A stretch of DNA of 64,000 nucleotides, from the NCBI RefSeq assembly GCF_002024165.1, contig NZ_MWQN01000001.1, forward strand, positions 6,386,001 through 6,450,000, given 5' to 3'. Positions 51,998 through 57,580 of the stretch are shown here, piece by piece (the first letter of the stretch is position 1; every line of letters starts with the position of its first letter). Origin of the DNA: Embleya scabrispora. Its GTDB lineage: Bacteria > Actinomycetota > Actinomycetes > Streptomycetales > Streptomycetaceae. A program made the position numbers and the translations under genes. Under the pieces are notes generated by a model. That model saw nothing but the letters and a program-made list of their open reading frames with translations. It made no database searches and was not told the DNA's origin.

Positions 51998-53521
51998 ATG
52001 AGTTCCCCCGAGCGTGTGCGGGCGCTCGACCTGATCGACCGCGTCCTGGACCCGGGCAGCTTCCGGGCCTGGAACGACCCGCTGCCGACGCTCGCCGCCC
52101 CGGACCCGGACTACGCGGCCGAACTGGCGGCGGCCCGCGAGCGCACCGGCCTGGACGAGGCGCTGGTCACCGGCGAGGGCCGGATCCACGCACGCCGGGT
52201 CGCGGTGGTGGCCTGCGAGTTCGACTTCCTGGCCGGCTCGATCGGCGTCGCGGGAGCGGAACGGCTCACCCTCGCGGTCGAGCGCGCCACCGCCGAGGGC
52301 CTGCCGCTGGTCGCCTCGCCCACCTCGGGCGGCACCCGCATGCAGGAGGGCACCGTCGCGTTCCTGCAAATGGTCAAGATCTCCGCGGCGGTGGCCGCGC
52401 ACCGCGCCGCGGGCCTGCCGTACCTGGTCTACCTGCGCCACCCCACCACGGGCGGCGTGTTCGCGTCCTGGGGCTCGCTCGGCCACGTCACCGCCGCCCA
52501 GCCCGGCGCGCTGATCGGCTTCCTCGGGCCGCGCGTGTACCAGGCCCTGCACGATCGCGCGTTCCCCGGCGGGGTCCAGGTCGCGGAGAACCTGTACGAG
52601 CACGGGCTGATCGACGCGGTGGTGCCGCCGGAGGAGCTGCGCCGGGTGGCGATCCGGGTCCTCGACGTGCTCGGCCCCGACACCGCGCCGCCCGCGCCGC
52701 CGGGACCGACCGCCGAGGTCTCCGCCGAGCCGCTGCCCGACGTGCCGGCCTGGACGTCGGTGCGGCGCTCGCGCGATCCGCGCCGCCCGGGCCTGCGCAC
52801 GCTGCTGCGACACGGCGCGCGCTCGGTCACCCCGCTGCGCGGGACGGGGGAGGGGGAGAGCGAACCGGCGCTGCGGCTGGCGCTGGCCCGATTCGGGGTC
52901 GAGGGCGGCCCCGGCGCGCCGTGCGTGGTGCTGGGCCAGGACCGCACCCGGCAGAGCGAACACGGCCCGTTCGGCCCGGCGGGGCTGCGCCAGGCCCGGC
53001 GCGGCATGCGGCTCGCGGCCGAGTTGGGACTGCCGCTGGTGACCGTGGTGGACACCGCCGGGGCGGCGCTGTCCCCGGAGGCGGAGGAGGGCGGCTTGGC
53101 CGGCGAGATCGCCCGGTGCCTGGCCGAACTGGTTCTGCTGCCCGCGCCGACCGTATGCCTCCTGCTCGGCCAAGGCTCCGGCGGCGGCGCCCTCGCGCTG
53201 CTGCCCGCCGACCGGGTCGTCTGCGCCCAACACGGCTGGCTGTCGCCGCTGCCCCCCGAGGGCGCGTCGGCGATCCTGTACCGCACGACGGATCGCGCCG
53301 CCGAGATCGCCGGCCGCCAGGGCATCCGAGCCGCCGACCTGCACCACAACGCCATCGTCGACCGCGTGGTCCCCGAACACCCGGACGCGGCCACCGAACC
53401 CGTGGCCTTCATCCACCGAATCGCCGAAGCCCTCCGCGAGGAACTCGACACGTTGCGAACCATGGATCCCGCGACCCGCTTGGCGAGGAGGCGATCGCGC
53501 TACCGAAGATTGGGCCTGTGA
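51998..53521 (+). CDS. Fused acetyl/acyl-CoA carboxylase carboxyltransferase (AccD-AccA type)
   Basis: 507 residues. The N-terminal crotonase-like half contains RVAVVACEFDFLAGSIGVAGAERLTLAVERATAEGLPLVASPTSGGTRMQEG and GHVTAAQPGALIGFLGPRV (beta-like). The C-terminal half has RGMRLAAELGLPLVTVVDTAGAALSPEAEEGGLAGEIARCLAEL and LLLGQGSGGGALALLPADRVV (alpha-like). It should transfer carboxyl from biotin to an acyl-CoA. There is no N-terminal zinc finger as in E. coli AccD and no biotin carboxylase nearby. ATG 51998 lies 6 nt after TAGCTT (51986-51991). Confidence 0.93.
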   Translation: MSSPERVRALDLIDRVLDPGSFRAWNDPLPTLAAPDPDYAAELAAARERTGLDEALVTGEGRIHARRVAVVACEFDFLAGSIGVAGAERLTLAVERATAEGLPLVASPTSGGTRMQEGTVAFLQMVKISAAVAAHRAAGLPYLVYLRHPTTGGVFASWGSLGHVTAAQPGALIGFLGPRVYQALHDRAFPGGVQVAENLYEHGLIDAVVPPEELRRVAIRVLDVLGPDTAPPAPPGPTAEVSAEPLPDVPAWTSVRRSRDPRRPGLRTLLRHGARSVTPLRGTGEGESEPALRLALARFGVEGGPGAPCVVLGQDRTRQSEHGPFGPAGLRQARRGMRLAAELGLPLVTVVDTAGAALSPEAEEGGLAGEIARCLAELVLLPAPTVCLLLGQGSGGGALALLPADRVVCAQHGWLSPLPPEGASAILYRTTDRAAEIAGRQGIRAADLHHNAIVDRVVPEHPDAATEPVAFIHRIAEALREELDTLRTMDPATRLARRRSRYRRLGL

Positions 53522-54895
53522 CCACGGGGGCGGGGGACCCCGGTCACAGACGCCCACCCGACGTGGCATTCCGGAACGCGAGCGGGGATCAGGCCGCGAG
53601 CGAAGCAGCGTGTCGGGTGCGAGCGAAGCAGCGTGTCAGGGTCGTGGCGCAGCAAGGCGGAGAATCGGGGTCGTGTCGGCGGCGGTGCTTTTTGTTGGGC
53701 GCTTCGCGCCGGCTCGCGAGGGACCACTTTTCTGCTCCCCCGCTTCGCTCCTCCGCAGAAAAGCGGCCCCTCGCTCGGGGTCGGCTGTCCCTCCGCTTCG
53801 CTCCGGGCCATCCGACCCACAAAACCGCGGCTCCGCCGCTCTCCGCGCTTCGCGCGTCGATCGCGTGGGCGGCCCGGGTCGTGGGCGCTGACGCGCCATG
53901 GGGGTGAGGGGTGGGGAGGCCAGGTTCGCGAGGCGGCGCGGGTCCCACGCCGCCTGGTCACCGTCGCGATGTGGGCCTTGCCCGGTGACCCGAGTCGTTG
54001 GTGTATCCCGTCGGCGCGTCAGCGCCCACGACCCTGGTCGAGGTGGTGATCGACGCGCGCAGCGCGGAGAGCGGCGGAGCCGCCGTTTGTTTTTTTGGGC
54101 TGGGCGACCCGGAGCGAAGCGGAGGGGCGCACAGCCGCGAGCGGGGTGCCGCTTTTCTGCGGAGGAGCGAAGCGGGGGAGCAGAAAAGCGGTGCCTCGCG
54201 AGCCGGCGCGAAGCGCCCAACAAAAAGCACCGCTGCGGGACACGACTTTGGCCGCTAGGGCGGCTTGTGCCGCGAGCCTGGTTGCTTCGTTCGCCTGCGC
54301 CGCCCTCCAGGCTCCGCGCCTTGCTCGCCCCGCGACTCCGGCCGGCCCCCGGTGGCCTCCGGGGCGCGGTCGGGACGGTTGTGCAGCGGTTTCTCCTCCG
54401 CTTCGCTCCGTCGGGCGCGGAGGCGCGGGACGCCGCCGCTGCGGCGGCGCCTCGGGGTACCGGCTCCGCTCCGCTCCACCGAGGCACCTTCGTCCGCCCG
54501 CCCAGCCCCCGACGTCCAGGTTGCCTCGTGCCGTTGGTGTGTCGAACCCAGCCGCAGGGCAACTGGGTGACTCTGGATTCACTCGAATGGATGAGCGTGG
54601 TGGGAGTCCCCAACGGCAAATCCCGCCGGATCTACGCTGAACGCGGTTCGGGATCCGGGCCGGTATCAGCCCGACCCGTCCGAGCACGGGCCAGGACGGG
54701 CCGGCTCGGCCCGGCGCCTCGTCCGGCCTTCCGGGGCCGTGGCGGCTCGATCGCGCCGTCGCGGGTCGGGTGCGGGGCGGGCGAGCCGGACCTCGGTAGG
54801 GGGGTCGCGGGTCGGCAAGTGGTCGCCGACCCGCGATGCTCCCGGGGCCGGTCCGGGGTGGTGGCGGCGGTCGGTCGGTGGCCTACAGTCGACGG
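53522..54895. other. Gene-free structured region
   Basis: 1374 bp between two plus-strand genes. It carries a direct repeat of GCGAGCGAAGCAGCGTGTC (53596-53614, 53619-53637), the long inverted repeat (separate entry), five copies of CCGCTTCGCTCC or its complement (53741, 53793, 54111, 54164, 54398) and further hairpins at 54274-54314 and 54449-54485. Reading frames through it have biased, repeat-driven compositions and no recognisable domain. The promoter of the SseB-like gene is at its right end (TACAGT 54884-54889). Confidence 0.7.
53682..54233. repeat. Long imperfect inverted repeat with nested hairpins
   Basis: Left arm 53682-53897 (216 nt) and right arm 54013-54233 (221 nt) are diverged reverse complements, separated by 115 nt. 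Best-conserved stretch: GCGGTGCTTTTTGTTGGGCG on the left against its complement ending at 54233, continuing through CTTCGCGCCGGCTCGCGAGG. Inside each arm is a hairpin: CCRCTTTTCTGC/GCAGAAAAGCGG at 53724-53735/53755-53766 (one mismatch) and 54149-54160/54180-54191 (perfect). The spacer has two hairpins of its own (AGGCGGCG/CGCCGCCT and GGTCACCG/CGGTGACC). Purpose unknown. Confidence 0.88.
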
Positions 54896-55633
54896 GTGGA
54901 TTTCAGCGGCAAGAGCATTCCCGACACCGGATTCCCCGACGACGACGGCAGCGCCCACCCCGCGCTGGCACGGGCGCTGGCGGCGCCGGAGGTGGACGAC
55001 GAGGCGGTCTCCCGAGCCCTGTGCGAGGCGCGACTGCTGGTCCCGGTGGTGGCGATCCTGACCGAGGAGGAGGACGTCGCGCCGGGGGAGTTGCGGCGGG
55101 AGAAGTCCAGCGACATGGCGGTGCCCACGATCCAGGGCCCGGACGGGCGCCGGGCGCTGCCGGCGTTCACCTCGGTCGCGGCGCTGGCGCGGTGGCGGGC
55201 GGACGCCCGGCCGATCCCGGTCGAGGCCGCGCGTGCCGCGCACGCCGCGTACGCGGAGGAGGCGGACACGCTGTTGCTCGACCTGGCCGGGCCGTATCCG
55301 TACGAGGTGTCGGGCAGTCGGCTGCGGGCGGTGGCGGAGGGGCGGGCGCATCTGGCTCCGCACCGGGACCCGGAGGTGCTGGGCGCGGTGCGGGAGGCGG
55401 TGCACTCCGAGCGTGCGGTGTCGGCGGTGTACCTGACCGAGGGCGGCGGCAACGATCTGACGCTGAGCCTGGTGGCGGCGGCGTCACCGATCGAGGTGAC
55501 GGAGGCCGCGCGGCGGATCGTGGGGCGGTTGGCCGAGGACGACGTGGTCCGGGCCCGGCTGGATCGTGGGCTCGACCTGGCGATGTTGCCGCCGGGCGCT
55601 TCGCTGGAGGCGGAGCCGCTCTTCTCGCGATAA
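54896..55633 (+). CDS. SseB-family protein
   Basis: 245 residues from GTG 54896, 7 nt after TACAGT (54884-54889). VDFSGKSIPDTGFPDDDGSAHPALARALAAPEVDDEAVSRALCEARLLVPVVAI and the following LPAFTSVAALARWRADARPIPVEAARAA are typical of the SseB N-terminal domain common in actinobacteria. The second half (VREAVHSERAVSAVYLTEGGGNDLTLSLVAA) matches the SseB C-terminal-like region. Soluble, function not established. Upstream is the structured region; downstream is repeat array C. Confidence 0.85.
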   Translation: MDFSGKSIPDTGFPDDDGSAHPALARALAAPEVDDEAVSRALCEARLLVPVVAILTEEEDVAPGELRREKSSDMAVPTIQGPDGRRALPAFTSVAALARWRADARPIPVEAARAAHAAYAEEADTLLLDLAGPYPYEVSGSRLRAVAEGRAHLAPHRDPEVLGAVREAVHSERAVSAVYLTEGGGNDLTLSLVAAASPIEVTEAARRIVGRLAEDDVVRARLDRGLDLAMLPPGASLEAEPLFSR

Positions 55634-55648
55634 ACGCGACCGGGGTCG

Positions 55649-56060
55649 TCCTCAAGCGCCGGACGGGCTGAGTGGGTCCGCTCGGTTTCGTGGCGCTTTG
55701 CCGGCGCTCACTCGCCCGATGGGCCGTGGGCCGGTTGGGCTCCGGGCCGGGCTGCGCCCCGCTTGTCCTCAAGCGCCGGACGGGCTGAGGGGGTTTGCTC
55801 GGCCTGAATGGATCTGCGCGGTCCGCGGTTCGTGGTGCTTTGCGGGTGCTCATTCGCCGGGTGGGCCGGTTGGGCTCCGGGCCGGGCTGCGCCCTGCTTG
55901 TCCTCAAGCGCCGGACGGGCTGAGGGGGTTTGCTCGGCCTGAATGGATCTGCGCGGTCCGCGGTTCGTGGTGCTTTGCGGGTGCTCATTCGCCGGGTGGG
56001 CCGGTTGGGCTCCGGGTCGGGCTGCGCCCTGCTTGTCCTCAAGCGTCGGATGGGCTTTGG
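55649..56060. repeat. Repeat array C: four CGCCGGACGGGCTG-type units with a 135-bp tandem duplication
   Basis: Units start at 55649, 55766, 55901 and 56036. The 135-bp block 55766-55900 is repeated almost exactly at 55901-56035. It fills the gap between the converging SseB-like and DUF1844 genes, as arrays A and B do at their own convergent gaps. No gene is called here. Confidence 0.9.
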
Positions 56061-56109
56061 TCTGTTCGGCCGAAGTGTCAGATGGGCTGAGGGGGTTGTT
56101 TGCTTGGGT

Positions 56110-56134
56110 GCCGGGCCGGGGGGGGCGGCCCGGC
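56110..56134 (-). terminator. Terminator of the DUF1844 gene
   Basis: GCCGGGCCG (56110-56118) pairs with CGGCCCGGC (56126-56134) around a loop of seven G, 7 nt past the stop codon. Confidence 0.65.
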
Positions 56135-56140
56135 TTTGGG

Positions 56141-56509
56141 TTAGTGGACTGGGCCGGTGAGTTTTTCGCCTGGGCCCTTTCCTGGGGCGTCCGGGTATGT
56201 GGAGGCTTCGCGGAAGGCCGACTGGAGGGTTTTGAGGCCGTCGCGCAGGGGGGCCGCGTGGTAGGAGCCGACCTCCGGGGCCGCGGCGGTGACCAGGCCC
56301 GCCAGAGCGGTGATCAGTTTGCGGGCCTCGTCGAGGTCCTTGTGCGCCTCGCCGTCCTCGGCCAGGCCCAGTTTGACCGCCGCCGCGCTCATCAGGTGGA
56401 CGGACAGCGTGGTGATGACCTCGACGGCCGGCACGTCCGCGATGTCGCGGGTCATGACGTCGACGTCGTCGGCCGGGCCGGGTGCAATATGGGGGGCGCT
56501 CTCGCTCAT
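56141..56509 (-). CDS. DUF1844 family protein
   Basis: 122 residues: MSESAPHIAPGPADDVDVMTRDIADVPAVEVITTLSVHLMSAAAVKLGLAEDGEAHKDLDEARKLITALAGLVTAAAPEVGSYHAAPLRDGLKTLQSAFREAS. The HLMSAAAVKLGL and DLDEARKLITALAGL helices define the family; function unknown. It is divergent from infC, an arrangement common in actinobacteria. ATG 56509. Confidence 0.9.
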   Translation of the reverse strand: MSESAPHIAPGPADDVDVMTRDIADVPAVEVITTLSVHLMSAAAVKLGLAEDGEAHKDLDEARKLITALAGLVTAAAPEVGSYHAAPLRDGLKTLQSAFREASTYPDAPGKGPGEKLTGPVH

Positions 56510-56578
56510 GGGGACCAGTCTCGGCCATGCCCCCGAATCGGGGAACAACGGGGCCCTTCGGCATGTTCGAGCCAGTGG

Positions 56579-56884
56579 TAGAGTGGTGTATCGACCGACC
56601 GGGCATCTGCATGCCCGGCCTGCAAGCGGAGGCTCCGTCTCCCACCCGATCGACCTCACGGACGACGGGTACCGGTCCGGTGCGACGCACATTCGTGTGC
56701 GTCCGTTCCACGTTCGCCGCCCTCCGGGCGGCTTCGTCAGCCGGTGGTGGAGCCTCGCATGCAACCGTGCGAGGCTTTTTCGCGTTGCCTGGATGGCTGC
56801 GCGCGGAACCTGGCTCGGGGGGAAGTAACACCGAGACACATGTGACCGCTTCGCCCGCGGTCGCTTCAGGTATGAGGAGGCCCC
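56579..56884 (+). promoter_or_regulatory. Structured leader of the infC operon
   Basis: A TAGAGT -10 candidate (56579-56584) implies a transcript with about 295 nt before infC. It contains CCGGGCAT-CTGC-ATGCCCGG (56599-56618), GACGCACA-TTCG-TGTGCGTC (56684-56703), GCCGCCC-TCC-GGGCGGC (56716-56732) and then a U-tailed terminator (56751-56780). The layout suggests control by premature termination of the infC-rpmI-rplT transcript. No sequence match to the known L20 leaders is evident to me. Confidence 0.6.
56751..56780 (+). terminator. Intrinsic terminator inside the infC leader
   Basis: AGCCTCGCA (56751-56759) pairs with TGCGAGGCT (56768-56776), loop 8 nt, followed by a run of five T (56776-56780). 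It is the only hairpin with a clear U tract I noticed in the window, and it lies upstream of infC rather than behind a gene. Confidence 0.78.
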
Positions 56885-57580
56885 ATCAGCGCCGAGCCCC
56901 GCATCAACGACCGGATTCGCGTCCCCGAGGTGCGACTCGTTGGTCCTGGCGGCGAGCAGGTCGGAATCGTCCCGCTGGCCAAGGCCATGGAACTTGCCCA
57001 GGAGTACGACCTCGACCTCGTAGAGGTCGCGGCCAACGCCCGGCCGCCGGTCTGCAAGCTCATGGACTACGGCAAGTTCAAGTACGAGTCGGCCATGAAG
57101 GCCCGTGAGGCGCGCAAGAACCAGGCGCACACGGTCATCAAGGAGATGAAGCTCCGGCCGAAGATCGACCCGCACGACTACGACACCAAGAAGGGTCACG
57201 TCGAGCGGTTCCTGAAGCAGGGCGACAAGGTCAAGATCACGATCATGTTCCGTGGTCGCGAGCAGTCCCGGCCCGAACTGGGCTACCGACTGCTGCAGCG
57301 TCTCGCGACGGACGTCCAGGAGCTCGGGTTCATCGAATCGAACCCGAAGCAGGACGGCCGCAACATGATCATGGTTCTCGGCCCGCACAAGAAGAAGACC
57401 GAGGCCATGGCCGAGGCTCGCGAGGCCCAGGCGGCGCGCAAGGACGCGCGTCGGGTGGCCGTCGAGTCCGGGGACGAACGCCCCGACGAGTCGGAAGCCG
57501 GCAGGGCCGAGGCCGCCGCTCAGGTCGCCGAAGCCCCCGTCGAGTCCGACGCGGAGTCGAAGGCCGAAGAGCAGGTCTGA
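56885..57580 (+). CDS. infC: Translation initiation factor IF-3, with ATC start codon
   Basis: 231 residues. No ATG, GTG or TTG lies near GAGGAGG (56874-56880); an ATC at 56885 follows it and gives the family's exact N terminus (M)[30 protein letters not shown]. The N domain (1-75), linker helix and C domain with [38 protein letters not shown] are complete, then an acidic tail of about 45 residues. IF-3 prevents 70S reassociation and rejects non-standard start codons, so a rare start allows self-limitation, as known for infC elsewhere. An ATG-based start would be at 56930, cutting the conserved N terminus. Confidence 0.95.

Follow-up and report, generated by a model that had tools for sequence, protein, structure and literature searches.

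Embleya scabrispora carries a family of dispersed repeats whose conserved feature is the predicted fold of one strand into six hairpins. We favour, at a probability of about 0.58, the reading that these are genus-specific, non-autonomous mobile elements, similar to MITEs and REPINs, which would work through a folded single strand. What was observed in favour of this reading is the dispersal of the copies, loci that differ between species in the way that gains would, fold conservation that favours one strand, and a bias of tandem arrays to the outer side of the element.

The repeat was found in a window of 64,000 nucleotides, by which we mean the whole stretch of DNA that was analysed, and is located inside one contig of the 11-Mb genome. 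A carboxyltransferase gene lies on one side and a gene with an SseB domain on the other. The gene-free gap of ~1.3 kb runs from the carboxyltransferase stop at 53521 to the start, at 54836, of an ORF taken for the next gene, and the inverted repeat is assigned no coding gene. The first-pass annotation had described long, diverged inverted arms here. These were recovered as two alignments, 53679-53824 with 54091-54236 (146 nt, 88% complementary) and 53822-53897 with 54013-54088 (76 nt, 87%), and the 115 nt spacer between the inner arms is as first noted. The hairpin nested in each arm was also found again, at 53716-53774 and 54141-54199, and its 12-bp stem, CCACTTTTCTGC/GCAGAAAAGCGG, indeed has one A.C mismatch in the left arm and is perfect in the right. 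In the 20 bp version of this stem there are 2 mismatches on the left and 3 on the right, and all five are G.T on the GAA strand. By this term we mean the folding strand with GAA loops, which is the minus strand in the left arm and the plus strand in the right. The inner-end motif is exact in both arms, at 53879-53897 and, on the minus strand, at 54013-54031. The five occurrences of CCGCTTCGCTCC are all present within 53500-54900, but the copy at 54398 lies outside the arms. The features are listed in Table 1.

Table 1. Coordinates of the repeat and its parts, in positions of the window
Feature	Position	Strand	Basis
Left arm, one complete monomer from outer to inner end	53666..53897	+	aligned with 53 other own-genome copies, some partial
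Spacer, 115 bp, common to dimer loci	53898..54012		matches through arms and spacer at 12 other dimer loci
Right arm, second monomer, inverted	54013..54247	-	repeat search; own-genome copies
H1, terminal inner hairpin GGCGC-GTCA-GCGCC	54013..54026	+	5 pairs invariant in the 80-copy alignment A1
H2, CGCGC-GNA-GCGCG (window copy: GCA)	54054..54066	+	A1 alignment, loop count
H3, GCGGC-GGAG-CCGC	54071..54084	+	A1 alignment, covariation
H4, stem with cap GCGAAGC and internal purines GGA/GGA	54097..54136	+	both sides changed in 6/12 pairs
H5, long stem (CTTTTCTGC/GCAGAAAAG) with cap GCGAAGC	54141..54199	+	both sides changed in 10/20 pairs
H6, terminal outer hairpin GGCGC-GAA-GCGCC	54205..54217	+	C(GNA)G in 75/80 rows
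H5 hairpin, left arm	53716..53774	-	inverted-repeat search
Outer tandem repeat of left arm, 22-bp unit x2	53596..53640	+	repeat search; period 23, 2.0 copies in another
CCGCTTCGCTCC occurrences	53740, 53793, 54398	+	
CCGCTTCGCTCC occurrences	54111, 54164	-	

Two neighbouring stretches are recorded here in their own right. Upstream of the SseB gene, positions 54577-54660 (TCACTCGAATGG..GGGAGTCCCC..GGCAAATCCCGCC) are conserved in three Embleya species and may possibly be a promoter or leader element; the DNA preceding them is not alignable among the same three species. Positions 56590-56782 give a sub-threshold match to the Rfam Scr1601 sRNA (50.7 bits, gathering threshold 100).

When the own genome was searched with the window repeat at least 97 matches were obtained, with 40 of 215 candidates scored. 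Counted genome-wide, the 27-nt outer-end motif has 55 matches against 0 for a reversed-pattern control, and the 19-nt inner-end motif has 61 against 1. All 55 outer ends fall within 34 loci, and of the 61 inner ends 5 come from short relatives. The 34 loci make up the family: 13 head-to-head dimers that share the 115-bp spacer, 19 single arms and 2 truncated dimers, the latter with one arm and the spacer, and with the second arm absent or shortened. At the 12 dimer loci other than that of the window, arms and spacer match it at 82-95% identity. Given that single-arm, dimer and truncated loci all exist, the repeating unit is the single arm and not the 552-bp pair. It consists of a core of ~205 bp and an outer extension of ~27 bp, and each core has two small terminal hairpins at its boundaries and four further hairpins inside. 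The ends of the monomer differ apart from the common 5-bp hairpin stem, and long inverted arms occur in dimers only. With genes called by a GC3 heuristic, a called gene overlaps the element at 8 of the 34 loci. The short relatives (L092, two in L124, L094 and L125) keep the hairpin of the inner end and part of those that follow it, without the long ones, and some are close to gene ends. At one of the 13 dimer loci (L059, 3687-5715) a tandem array beside the dimer holds six element copies and a fragment, with a period of about 317 bp and two alternating types (635 bp).

Many copies had been named beforehand as the mark of a MITE-like element, and they are found in the own genome at these 34 loci. 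The opposite outcome, with neither copies nor conservation, would have spoken for chance or for a decaying inverted duplication. The arms do differ at ~12% of positions, as such an origin would allow, but the 34 loci, the presence of the element in the genus and the covariation described below leave this explanation with practically no credence, and we take it as ruled out by the copies and the covariation. Of the first-pass suggestion of a decayed or mobile non-autonomous element, mobility is supported, with copies and empty orthologous sites in its favour, and decay is not, as the stems are kept by covariation.

The family appears to be found only in its genus. Among 61 related genomes the element is present in four, all of the genus and the own genome included. 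Short weak matches in nine other genomes were set aside, as the ten loci inspected by eye resembled ordinary gene DNA. A search of GTDB release 220 for the exact loop signature gave 47 stretches, all from Embleya or a strain of the same genus (15 from E. hyalina, 23 from E. scabrispora and 9 from Streptomyces sp. SID3343), a count that possibly excludes the own genome and misses diverged copies. An origin from phages or plasmids was rejected: there was no phage match, and the one plasmid record that matched is itself an Embleya replicon.

Relatives used for comparison were E. hyalina NBRC 13850, E. scabrispora DSM 41855 and Streptomyces sp. SID3343; their assemblies are drafts, and copies are therefore often at contig ends. 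In E. hyalina 20 loci were queried by joined flank fragments, with 7 left unjudged as their flanks lie on different contigs or are rearranged. At the 14 loci compared, which include the window locus, the element is present at 6 and lacking at 8, one of which retains a weak 37-nt end match. At L064, for example, the flanks abut in E. hyalina, and this genome has 1,361 bp there with a dimer midway. In E. scabrispora DSM 41855 12 loci were queried together with the window locus, which was judged by direct sequence reading instead of alignment; 10 of the 12 judged are without the element, and L088 was unjudged. Here L084 has copies at two facing contig ends, and at L073 a contig end carries a short weak match.

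Among this genome, E. hyalina and E. scabrispora DSM 41855, five loci (L064, L075, L083, L087 and L089) are occupied in this genome alone. Another five (L078, L080, L081, L085 and the window locus, L058) are occupied here and in E. hyalina, and the dimer of this genome at the window locus corresponds to a single arm in E. hyalina. As several loci are empty in the sister species, copies seem to have been gained recently. The remaining two, L073 and L084, look filled in this genome and in E. scabrispora DSM 41855 but empty in E. hyalina, which points to loss or repeated insertion occurring as well. Target duplications, which the first-pass annotation had expected of a MITE-like element along with many copies, were not seen at the seven empty sites read, where the intergenic flanks are not alignable between species.

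Conservation of the fold was studied in an alignment (A1) of 80 of the 85 listed copies. An array duplicate, L119 (a near-duplicate of L118) and the truncated L138, L142 and L143 were dropped; own matches below 200 bits, later array copies, and relatives' matches below 90 bits or short of the inner end had been omitted beforehand. In A1 the loops are constant and the stems vary in pairs. A structure of 55 pairs has 96.3% of cells paired, compared with 33-52% when it is slid, a figure favoured by drawing the structure from the same sequences, in which related copies are not independent. Changes on both sides are seen in 17 pairs and 253 cells, compared with 1-5 pairs and 4-35 cells when slid. 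None of 500 shuffles reaches the paired-cell percentage, the number of both-side pairs or cells, or the covariation score. The count of further pair types is not beyond the shuffles, 46 of which attain it. Covarying stems, one half of what had been proposed as a sign of RNA, are accordingly present.

The main reason to think that one strand folds, and that its fold appears to be selected, is the kind of imperfect pair that is tolerated. On the GAA strand G.T outnumbers A.C by 139 to 6 (46 pairs), and the same pairs would read A.C on the opposite strand. With the outer terminal hairpin and five pairs of uncertain register still included, the counts were 179 and 21. The loops are also kept. C(GNA)G caps close 314 of 320 hairpins (H2, H4, H5 and H6 in 80 copies), with C(GAA)G or C(GCA)G in 80/80 copies of H2, C(GAA)G in 80/80 of H4 and 79/80 of H5, and C(GNA)G in 75/80 of H6. 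In one E. scabrispora copy (L134, 2422-2480) the apical part of H5 is inverted, a hairpin inversion at the DNA level.

Covariation with G.U rather than A.C on one strand is also an RNA-like pattern. It could mean a structured RNA family, in which the GAA strand is transcribed, the fold of the ~205 nt RNA is functional, and the copies were multiplied like sRNA genes or 3′-UTR modules. The RNA fold of the right arm in the window agrees with this, with z at -3.2 for the GAA strand and -1.9 for its complement; the DNA fold has the same strand preference (-3.1 and -1.9). No Rfam 15 covariance model matched over the element (E up to 1, window 52000-57000). Nor is there an orientation bias with respect to neighbouring genes, with 5 loci GAA-sense and 5 TTC-sense among the 10 non-dimer or truncated-dimer loci between tandem genes, on heuristic gene calls; the same 10 loci led us to reject a cis-acting terminator or 3′-UTR element. 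The C(GNA)G loops, moreover, fit single-stranded DNA at least as well. Taken together, we consider an RNA family rather unlikely.

GNA or GNNA loops on at least 2 G-C pairs are exceptionally stable in DNA (PMC4686876), and the single-stranded Streptomyces telomere contains GCA loops with sheared G-A closing pairs (PMC4513846). For both of these reasons our reading leans to single-stranded DNA, and the folded strand probably acts as DNA.

The same likeness raises the idea that the repeats belong to the streptomycete Tap/Tpg telomere system, which recognises closely packed GNA-loop hairpins, either as copies inside the replicon or as its binding sites, since typical Streptomyces telomeres also have tightly packed palindromes and GCA loops with sheared G:A pairing (PMC4513846). 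We regard this as very improbable. The copies are located inside replicons, and the ends of the linear Embleya NBC_00888 replicon are unlike the element (best profile score 3.6 bits). Own contig ends, which need not be telomeres, score at most 7.3 bits (E 0.047). A telomere copy was rejected on these grounds, as neither these replicon ends nor the own contig ends examined gave a weighty match. The NBC_00888 ends (L181 1-130 and L182) are themselves mutually identical over the stretches read and start with TAC/GTA-loop hairpins; they look like a non-typical streptomycete telomere.

The history of individual copies is not a simple one of descent. Six loci are filled in both this genome and E. 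hyalina, and in seven comparisons the orthologous copy ranks 4 to 13 of 13 in similarity, although the flanks align at ~83-98%. Orthologues resemble one another no more closely than do copies taken at random from the two species. With flanks so well aligned, this suggests that copies are overwritten from within the genome, by gene conversion, or re-inserted. Stem types are shuffled among copies, and one copy (L066:3443) carries a half-changed stem. Overall likeness is 0.892 for single copies and 0.890 for dimer arms; within a stem class it is 0.939 for dimer arms and 0.926-0.932 for single copies.

Correction of quasi-palindromes would produce compensatory changes. The repeats might on this basis be passive, with no dedicated transposase, spread by recombination or replication errors, and their covariation could come from hairpin-templated correction in place of selection. 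The inverted apical loop and the half-changed stem fit such a process, as do orthologous copies that are not closest, and tandem arrays and internal deletions speak of local instability. What passive spread leaves unexplained is the 139:6 preference on one strand; loop letters kept across species while the stems vary and 13 dimer sites with a common spacer also argue against it. We judge it quite improbable.

Tandem repeats cluster on one side of the element. Of the 42 copies with both flanks readable, 23 have them no more than 400 bp from the outer end and 10 have them equally near the inner end (Wilcoxon p 0.015, uncorrected for relatedness). Without two dimer arms of L062 and one duplicated contig the counts are 21/39 and 10/39 (p 0.030, likewise uncorrected for relatedness). 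In 30 further copies the outer side alone was judged (22 of these are own-genome dimer arms), and 24 have tandem repeats there. Array periods near 30, or half or double of it, are frequent. A piece of the common unit, 19 bases long, has 43 matches in the genome, against 3 for a reversed-pattern control. Within 1.5 kb of an element there are 37 on its outer side and 1 on its inner side, and the other 5 are elsewhere; the 38 close matches, spread over 15 loci, all point toward the element. At L089 the repeated unit covers a gene end together with the element's outer end, so this array, at least, expanded in situ. At L083, 79-bp tandem units (2650-2980) on the element's inner side are similar to a sequence at the orthologous site in E. 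hyalina.

An excess of C over G on the GAA strand was seen on both sides of the element, in this and other sampled Embleya genomes. At loci that are not plain dimers the C-rich flanks number 20/22 inner and 17/22 outer (two of the 22 are L062 arms). Outer flanks of plain dimers give 20/22, and other genomes 27/32 inner and 23/31 outer.

No mobilising enzyme was found. None of the ten neighbouring proteins scanned is a transposase (a Pfam family was above cut-off in six). In the assembly of this genome, which is estimated to be 98.6% complete, the Y1 transposase model (PF01797, Y1_Tnp) has 0 matches, with a positive control in 5 genomes, and the reverse transcriptase model (PF00078, RVT_1) has 0 matches, with a positive control in 3. 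Movement by a resident Y1 enzyme and retro-movement by a resident reverse transcriptase were rejected on these results. The Y2 HUH transposase (PF04986) also has 0 matches here, and its control was likewise silent everywhere. In the stretches read no coding copy of an autonomous transposon sharing the ends was found, a search that diverged ends would escape. A longer autonomous relative was considered between same-strand inner ends 3.07 kb apart, where the repeats and stretches read hold only two short relatives.

For the mobile-element reading we envisage the following. The GAA strand would become single-stranded DNA, either in the course of replication or in an intermediate of transfer, and would fold into GNA-capped hairpins. 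A protein encoded elsewhere would recognise the folded unit and copy or move it to new positions between genes. With the GAA strand as template, a polymerase would first run into the outer hairpin, and stalling and slippage there would build tandem repeats chiefly on the outer side. The copies might later be homogenised by gene conversion. Several points count against this reading: the lack of a Y1_Tnp or RVT_1 match and of a visible target duplication, the order of L073 and L084, orthologues that are not closest, an RNA fold with the same strand preference, the inner-end arrays of 10/42 copies, and a count of further pair types within the range of the shuffles.

A bolder version, which we think unlikely as a whole, is that the family represents a new class of bacterial mobile DNA. 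It would move in the form of one folded strand with six hairpins, whose C(GNA)G-capped DNA mini-hairpins, with the loop type found in streptomycete telomeres, would be recognised by an enzyme that is neither Y1 nor reverse transcriptase, and it would seed one-sided minisatellites of ~30 bp by stalling replication at one end.

The family is a clear example of a dispersed element that has preserved one strand's fold through the turnover of its letters. It belongs to a genus that has linear replicons, and comparison with sister species allows its gains to be placed. Two questions thereby become accessible to experiment: what protein mobilises hairpin elements in bacteria without RAYTs, and do stable GNA hairpins cause one-sided minisatellite growth? 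It also helps to explain the long intergenic gaps and the contig breaks in Embleya assemblies. A literature search found no description of these repeats, and they are not described in the accessible part of a paper on the Embleya secondary chromosome (PMC13152386).

In comparison with known systems, this is a new family that acts like REPINs and MITEs and fits neither definition fully, because there is no RAYT match, the unit has no terminal inverted repeats and no target duplication was seen. As in MITEs, the unit is short, non-coding and dispersed in many copies (34 loci); the terminal inverted repeats of MITEs are absent from the monomer. Elements of the IS200/IS605 type have hairpins at both ends. 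The Embleya unit resembles them in having a hairpin at each end. An HUH enzyme, TnpA-REP, recognises single-stranded hairpins (PMC8266576). It differs in that this genome has no Y1 transposase match and the element no defined cleavage motif.

Typical Streptomyces telomeres have an overhang of ~300 nt, and their replication requires 167 bp (PMC4513846). They share with the Embleya element the tightly packed GNA-loop hairpins on one strand, whereas the element is internal, dispersed and unlike Embleya linear replicon ends. BrickBuilt of Porphyromonas gingivalis is a minisatellite within a MITE, with 19 intergenic copies in one species, and has a 23-nt array between leader and tail and small inverted-repeat ends (PMC4596501). 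Both families have intergenic copies and a tandem repeat joined to conserved parts, but the Embleya monomer has no inverted-repeat ends, its array is outside the core, and the fold is its conserved feature.

REPINs are dispersed, extragenic and non-autonomous; they form inverted doublets with a spacer, predicted to fold in single-stranded DNA or mRNA, and tandem clusters (PMC3116915). The Embleya repeats share the dispersal, the non-autonomy, the tandem clusters and the inverted doublets with a spacer, here at 13 dimer loci and likewise with a predicted fold. REPINs have RAYT transposases, and this Embleya genome has no Y1/RAYT match. The Embleya unit is also distinguished by its ~205 bp core with six hairpins and by its outer minisatellites. 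Finally, REPIN singlets are clearly less alike than doublets (PMC3116915), while Embleya single copies are about as alike as dimer arms.
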